Source: Deltaproteobacteria bacterium
Lineage (GTDB): Bacteria; Desulfobacterota; Desulfobaccia; Desulfobaccales; 0-14-0-80-60-11
Reading direction: 5' to 3'
NCBI GenBank assembly: GCA_026388765.1
Contig: JAPLJC010000201.1
Span: 1-36,907, forward strand
DNA length: 36,907 nt
Every line of letters begins with the position of its first letter. Position 1 is the stretch's first letter. The position numbers were made by a program, and so were the translations under genes. Shown here in pieces: positions 1,261 through 1,971 of this stretch. A model generated the notes under the pieces. That model saw only the letters and a program-made list of their open reading frames with translations, made no database searches and was not told the DNA's origin.

Positions 1261-1971
1261 ATGAGCGAAATTGCGAAGGGAAGCACCCCCACCAGTCTGG
1301 AAGGCGCGCAAGTGGTATCTCCAAAGGAAGCCAGACAGATTCAGGCGCAGGGAGGATTGCTGATCGCCTGCTACACCCACATGACGGATTGGGTTCAGGC
1401 CCGGCCGGTTGCTGCCATTCACATTACCATGGATGTCCCTAAAGATCATAAACGGCCGGACTTCGACTTGGCAGAGGCCCAATTCGATATGTCGGCGCTG
1501 CCGGAGGACAAAGCGCGTCCCCTGGTGGTGTTCTGTGCGGATGATATGTGATGGAAATCCTATCATGCTGCCAGGCTGGCAGTGAGAGCCGGATATAATA
1601 ACGTTAACTGGATGAGGGTGGGCATCAAGGGCTGGCATAAGGCCTTTTATGCCACGGCATCTGATTCAAAGGTCTTCATGGCGTTGATGGACCTCAATCA
1701 GAGTGATCCCGAAAAATGGATCATTGACCAAGGCAGGACCAAATTTCTAAAGAATCCGACCTTTCTGGATTTGCGCTCGCCGGAGCAATTCGACCAGGGA
1801 CACGTGGCCGGGGCGATCAATATCCCCTATGCGGATTTGTGGACGTTCGACAATTTCGAGAAAGTCAATAAGAGCCGGGATATCGTGCTAATTTTTGATA
1901 ATCCGGTGGTGGCCGGCGCCTTGGCCCTGACCTTGAGGCTGCTGGATTATCAAGCGTTTATTTTGGCCTAG
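1261..1971 (+). CDS. tandem rhodanese-domain selenoprotein (UGA = Sec97)
   Basis: Predicted sulfur/selenium-transfer protein of 236 residues if the TGA at 1549-1551 is read as selenocysteine. The frame before the TGA (96 codons) and after it is the same. The junction reads VVFCADDM-U-WKSYHAARLA, matching the rhodanese active-site pattern C-x4-C-W-K-S-Y-x-A-A, with U exactly at the catalytic Cys. It continues with AGYNNVNW...GWHKA, a normal rhodanese end. A second domain follows (FLDLRSPEQFDQGHVAGAIN, residues ~155-236) whose active-site loop reads IFDNPVVAG without Cys, so it is probably structural. Start ATG has an AAAGGAA site. A SECIS-like hairpin follows the TGA. The alternative is a nonsense mutation; placement and hairpin argue against that. 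No sel genes are in the window. Confidence 0.85.
1549..1594 (+). promoter_or_regulatory. bacterial SECIS-like element
   Basis: Right after the in-frame TGA, CTGCCA (1568-1573) pairs with TGGCAG (1577-1582) around loop GGC. A lower stem ATCC (1557-1560)/GGAT (1591-1594) is also possible. There are 22 bases between the TGA and the loop, and the loop begins with G, as expected for a bacterial SECIS read by SelB. Confidence 0.7.

Follow-up and report, generated by a model that had tools for sequence, protein, structure and literature searches.

Rhodanese selenoproteins and the window gene

Rhodanese selenoproteins are already known. Five forms are described in the accessible part of a 2026 review (PMC13188914), with UxxS (form 1) and UxxxxU (TsoB, form 5) among them, and selenoproteins of the sulfurtransferase or rhodanese type are mentioned in the available parts of PMC1088965, PMC2398784, PMC5029168 and PMC8318568 too. 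In the available text of PMC1794560, rhodanese is named only in a reference. No study on the function of a Sec rhodanese was found in the accessible portions of the literature searched, and a literature search for rhodanese with CXXCW returned nothing related. The gene described here lies in a window of 36,907 nucleotides, which is the whole stretch of DNA that was analysed (contig JAPLJC010000201.1 of a Deltaproteobacteria bacterium, assembly GCA_026388765.1). It belongs to a tandem rhodanese family with the motif CxxxxU, which is a variant of the known rhodanese selenoproteins, unless review form 1 is the same family.

TsoB (NF045694), a selenoprotein resembling a rhodanese/DsbD fusion, is similar to the window protein in two ways. 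Residues 78-138 of the window protein, which hold the Cys/Sec pair, align to model positions 102-162, and the motif listed for TsoB in the accessible part of the review has the same x4 spacing (PMC13188914). The two Sec of TsoB would then presumably fall on residues 92 and 97. However, TsoB contains a pair of Sec residues and a part resembling DsbD, whereas the window protein, 236 aa long, has CxxxxU and a second rhodanese domain, and its score of 38.4 bits stays below the cut-off of 805. Review form 1 (PF00581, WP_010941598.1), compared by motif only, has a rhodanese domain, and its UxxS corresponds to UWKS in the window protein. The window family may be the same as form 1, for which another tandem rhodanese with UPYS (locus L048, see below) is about equally eligible. 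Form 3 (NF041203) is also a rhodanese and matches weakly (19.2 bits, cut-off 115), but its motif in the accessible list is CxU and not CxxxxU.

The best NCBIfam match was TIGR03865, the PQQ-dependent catabolism-associated CXXCW protein (52.3 bits, residues 7-131), and the window protein has a W after the second Cys/Sec, as the CXXCW name suggests. This score is nevertheless below the cut-off of 128.05, and the model, with its 167 positions, includes no second domain. None of the NCBIfam cut-offs was reached by the four family members scanned (P0001-P0004, of 33). The best profile and Foldseek matches were the solved tandem rhodaneses 6mxv and 1yt8, which also have several rhodanese domains. 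Their loop differs in being two residues shorter in that alignment, and in lacking a second Cys or Sec.

As the sequence-only reading had proposed, the reading frame of the window gene runs through a TGA, which is its sole interruption (Table 1). Pfam PF00581 matches the window protein in two stretches (E=1.3e-17; 64.6 bits, gathering cut-off 22.2), the best of which spans the TGA, and the context of U97 reads VVFCADDMUWKSYHAARLAV. Another in-frame TGA, at 1255-1257 and immediately 5' of the ATG, makes a longer N-terminus impossible under ordinary decoding. No signal peptide was seen in the window protein by eye, and a promoter scan gave no plus-strand site just upstream of the gene. The gene is flanked on one side by ribosomal protein S2 and on the other by an MFS transporter, each encoded by the minus strand. 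About 70 bp 3' of the gene there is an inverted repeat of 21 nt (2043-2086; 90% complementary, 2-nt spacer) with no T-run, perhaps a dispersed repeat. Rfam gave no match at the SECIS and one sub-threshold match at 1951-2076. A coding-potential scan of the window for further UGA genes listed none, with the rhodanese itself scoring below the scan threshold.

Table 1. Features of the rhodanese gene, in window coordinates
Feature	Position	Strand	Basis
Possible ribosome-binding site AAGGAA	1248..1253	+	By eye
Predicted tandem rhodanese selenoprotein gene, 236 aa	1261..1971	+	ATG 1261; TAG 1969-1971
Rhodanese domain 1, residues 43-127, with Cys92/Sec97 loop	1387..1641	+	Best Pfam stretch
Cys92 codon, canonical rhodanese cysteine position	1534..1536	+	Alignments to 6mxv (two domains) and 1yt8; C in 33/33
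UGA codon for predicted Sec97, second position of C-x4-U	1549..1551	+	UGA in 33/33 family genes
Putative bSECIS hairpin, 7 pairs (6 Watson-Crick + G-U), GGC loop 1574-1576	1567..1583	+	Fold and comparative evidence
Rhodanese domain 2, residues 165-236, active-site loop without Cys	1753..1968	+	phmmer matches and loop sequences

Selenocysteine at codon 97

A check of the source genome (3.7 Mb, 93.5% complete) for the Sec machinery, which the sequence-only reading had suggested, returned selA, selB, selD and tRNA-Sec, all above their cut-offs. The tRNA-Sec, with anticodon TCA, scored 75.7 bits (Rfam cut-off 47), SelA 602.4 (267.9), SelB 346.1 bits (242.25) and SelD 388.2 (125). Control genomes also gave matches in these searches, and only scores above the curated cut-offs were counted. 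All four genes are on other contigs than the rhodanese gene. The SelD of this genome (L057) is likely a selenoprotein as well, with its own in-frame UGA close to where the matched part begins.

Together with 32 relatives, the window gene forms a family of 33 genes from 32 genomes. UGA stands at codon 97 in all of them and Cys in none, and the C-x4-U-W-K-S-Y loop, with its Cys92, is kept in 33/33. The search profile had Cys at site 97, so that Cys members were not disfavoured; the extraction pattern required U or C before WKSY and allowed C, S, A, U or G at the first position. The frame downstream of the TGA is intact in the other genomes, apart from L134, where it is cut by the contig end, and L133, where it is partly cut. 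One relative, L002, from a genome labelled in its record as a Thermodesulfobacteriota MAG, was retrieved by a genome-contig scan and has 74% identity to the window protein and UGA at the same codon. The window probably comes from this phylum (Desulfobacterota) as well.

Within the window's own order, the source genome was the only one of 29 with a match at E<=1e-15. In the phylum sample, 52 of 395 genomes match at E<=1e-6, and only the source genome and genome G348, with two copies, exceed 200 bits, the next score being 69.6. The two copies in G348 (L044 and L045) are paralogues of the exported form, located on different contigs, and both have the UGA. A four-member profile found matches in 29 of 389 genomes from the class of G348, at 32 places: 28 cover residue 97 and have one TGA each, and four are partial and miss this residue. 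At E<=1e-12, matches were obtained in 49 of the 257 genomes from the class of G317. Three of their 51 places exceed 300 bits, with one TGA each, and the other 48 are weak, more distant relatives (hereafter cousins).

Downstream of the UGA lies a hairpin with the core CUGCCA-GGC-UGGCAG (1568-1582), whose loop starts 22 nt after the UGA and has G as its first base, as first noticed from the sequence. With a loop of 3 nt, a stem of 6-7 bp, a spacing of 22 nt and an MFE of -16.2 kcal/mol, it is within the bSECIS limits given in the accessible part of the review (loop 3-9 nt with G in the first two positions, stem 4-16 bp, spacing 16-37 nt, MFE <=-7.5; PMC13188914). Folded alone, the hairpin is not significant (z -1.67; 17 of 200 shuffles fold as well). 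The single-sequence fold is thus unremarkable, and the SECIS call is based on comparative evidence.

A perfect 6-bp Watson-Crick stem with a G-first loop is found at the same distance after the UGA in all 33 family genes. Under synonymous recoding (1000 rounds), perfect Watson-Crick stems numbered 1.0 on average and 5 at most, and with G-U allowed the mean was 1.7 and the maximum 7. Within the family, two pairs changed on both sides, one from C-G to U-A in four genes and the other in a single gene. Where the residue is the same, codons +1 to +11 show an identity of 0.79, compared with 0.44-0.56 elsewhere. The Arg105 codon is AGG in 32 of the 33 genes, while AGG makes up 28 of the 192 Arg codons in the surrounding frame. 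In L112 (436-477), Arg105 is replaced by Ser, with AGT for AGG, and the AG bases of the hairpin are retained.

For covariation, the family genes were aligned with five sites chosen from a set of eight Sec cousin sites, giving 38 rows, of which 36 are distinct. In this alignment, 98.8% of the cells pair, with double changes in three of the seven pairs (9 cells), and its slid controls paired in only 16-67%. The covariation score was reached by none of 500 shuffles and the number of doubly changed pairs by 7 of 500, the score being somewhat favoured by the choice of cousin sites, which left out L027, L038 and L042, where the hairpin is placed differently. The family stem occurs at its place in five of 13 Sec cousins and in none of 58 Cys cousin domains. 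Likewise, any stem of at least 6 pairs in the SECIS zone was present in 12 of 13 Sec cousins versus 8 of 58 Cys cousins. Taking together the Sec machinery, the conserved UGA and the covarying hairpin, the window gene almost certainly encodes a genuine selenoprotein and has a bacterial SECIS, its UGA being read as Sec. The proposal of selenocysteine at the TGA is therefore strongly supported. It also survived the two refuting conditions named with it, since neither a lack of Sec machinery nor a TGA confined to this contig with decay downstream was observed.

The Cys92/Sec97 loop and the second domain

The sequence-only reading had also placed Sec at the canonical catalytic Cys and had considered it the only catalytic group. 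Neither of these two claims was supported. In a profile search against solved structures, Cys92 aligns with the Cys of both domains of 6mxv and with that of 1yt8, presumably the rhodanese catalytic Cys, and a two-residue gap follows. In the canonical CxxGxRS loops of the cousins' second domains, the Cys also falls on Cys92, there is no gap, and Arg stands opposite Sec97. Since the gap differs between the alignments, the two-residue loop extension depends on the alignment. As judged by sequence comparison, Sec97 is the second member of C-x4-C whichever alignment is taken, that is, at the partner position. Sec as sole catalytic group was rejected because Cys92, at the canonical position, is invariant. 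The interpretation should shift accordingly: Sec would partner the catalytic Cys, and not replace it.

The first Cys is present in all 46 Sec loops examined (33 family genes and 13 cousins), where the cousin search pattern allowed C, S or G at the first position and one later-added cousin was sought with C fixed. Among 75 cousin domains (E<=1e-12), the pair was C/C in 58, C/U in 13, S/G in two, G/S in one and C/G in one. Three domains are without both residues, one has the first only and none the second only, counts that are not independent of shared ancestry. The cousins comprise the matches listed and hits fetched for their TGA; the set is consequently TGA-enriched, and 13/75 is not a frequency. 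It excludes 23 canonical domains and the repeat loci L046, L047, L052 and L089.

Cousins with Sec as the second residue of C-x4-[C/U] are spread over several separate branches of the tree described below (L024, L027, L028, L034, L038, L040, L042, L049, L050 and L051). In L027, L038, L042 and L051, a single frame encodes both a domain with Sec and a domain with Cys. L048 (4612-6364) consists of two adjoining tandem rhodanese genes with C-x4-U (CLSERUAYG and CMGHDUPYS). It belongs to a second tandem rhodanese group, together with L138-L155. The best 27 places in this class score 600-175 bits, each with at least one TGA, and among these places nine genomes have two adjacent copies.

In a tree of 104 domains, which was built without four cousin rows recovered later, all 33 family genes group in a single clade (99/95), in which the window gene falls inside an 8-gene clade whose members have no signal peptides (100/100). 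The proteins of this smaller clade are probably cytoplasmic; the other family members, 25 of the 33, look exported by eye. The rows nearest to the family are L019 and L032 (96/92). Both have S-x4-G-W-K-S-Y, a loop without either redox residue and otherwise the same. The tree requires no fewer than 10 changes of the Sec label, at least seven of them forced by well-supported branches (shuffled mean 33.7), a number that is uncertain due to the few columns and some long branches.

The second rhodanese domain, for which phmmer matches to solved rhodaneses lie between residues 160 and 234, is without an active-site Cys, as initially claimed. Its loop reads IFDNPVVAG in the window protein, and all 32 family genes that retain the loop lack the Cys (for example, IIHDVPAVAG), the remaining one being truncated. 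These loops suggest that domain 2 is probably inactive. Other Cys residues are found in domain 2 of many exported members. Cys37 was considered as a third partner and rejected, as it is Ala in L128-L132 and L134. An AlphaFold model from a two-sequence alignment shows a strand at 88-92, followed by a helix at 98-109, and with a mean pLDDT of 63 it is too weak for a Cys92-Sec97 distance. Foldseek with this model gave rhodaneses first, with low whole-chain TM-scores.

Possible functions and significance

The explanation that we favor, and consider likely, is a Sec-inserted rhodanese in which Cys92 and Sec97 form a couple, acting as a redox-coupled sulfurtransferase or persulfide reductase. With the bSECIS hairpin as its guide, SelB would insert Sec at the UGA at 1549, and the active-site loop of domain 1 would then hold the invariant pair. 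Either Cys92 or Sec97 could first accept sulfane sulfur (or selenium), with a persulfide, a polysulfide or thiosulfate as the donor. The other residue would attack and either release sulfide or pass the atom on, leaving a Cys92-S-Se-Sec97 bond to be reduced by thioredoxin or another thiol. Domain 2, without its active-site Cys, would serve as a structural or substrate-binding copy.

Inferring function from the neighbours was rejected, as no recurrent neighbour indicates a substrate, donor or acceptor. Across the 33 loci (at most 6.5 kb on each side, many cut by contig ends), no gene family was found in more than three loci, and some of the loci that share neighbours are close kin (L128, L129 and L134). 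One neighbour cluster of 24 loci turned out to be opposite-strand frames overlapping the gene itself. A mobile-element origin was also rejected, with no phage match and no viral contigs with the motif DNA. Four of 72,556 plasmid records match the window protein, partly and weakly, and none match the family member P0003.

It is conceivable, if unlikely, that Sec97 itself is the nucleophile accepting sulfur or selenium, as first proposed, and that Cys92 only resolves. Selenols are better nucleophiles, according to the accessible part of the review (PMC13188914), and Sec is invariant in the family at a site where many cousins use Cys. Against this, Cys92, and not Sec97, is aligned with the canonical rhodanese cysteine, and Sec never occurs without the first Cys in the Sec loops examined. 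We see an equally modest chance that the protein has a rhodanese fold but acts as a thiol-disulfide (selenenylsulfide) oxidoreductase or binds metal(loid)s, with no sulfur transfer. C-x4-U could cycle as a redox pair, and homology to thiol oxidoreductases is shared by most predicted selenoproteins, as stated in the available part of PMC9312934, but Cys92 occupies the place of the rhodanese cysteine in the fold, which speaks against this reading.

A role as selenium carrier appears improbable; in this scheme, selenide or elemental selenium would bind to the Cys-Sec pair, form a perselenide there and be delivered to SelD. The rhodanese TST has been described as a selenium transporter (PMC9369223, accessible part), and the source genome makes selenoproteins. 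However, the Sec machinery genes are on other contigs, no neighbour recurs, most members look exported and would thus be away from SelD, and the gene is patchy even within its order. Finally, the view that the TGA is a genuine stop or arose from faulty sequencing or assembly, and that the gene is a pseudogene or two separate genes, can be practically dismissed: translation table 11 lists only the downstream half as an ORF of at least 100 aa (129 aa), yet the TGA recurs at the same codon throughout the family, the covarying hairpin is conserved, and the source genome has complete Sec machinery.

Without decoding of UGA, an annotation pipeline would split this gene at its active site. Beyond the Cys92-Sec97 couple itself, we regard it as rather doubtful, though worth considering, that the family is selenium-obligate, with a modified loop and a chalcogen chemistry in which Cys cannot replace Sec in this lineage, for example, the one-site reduction of sulfane sulfur or the loading of elemental selenium. 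If this were true, the family would represent a distinct seleno-sulfurtransferase class, beside relatives that have lost both residues. Nearly all selenoenzymes have far more abundant Cys homologues, as reported in the accessible part of the review (PMC13188914). In contrast, Sec is kept in every family member found, while at site 97 in the wider sample Sec was gained or lost at least seven times. The question of when Sec is needed becomes testable within one loop of one fold.
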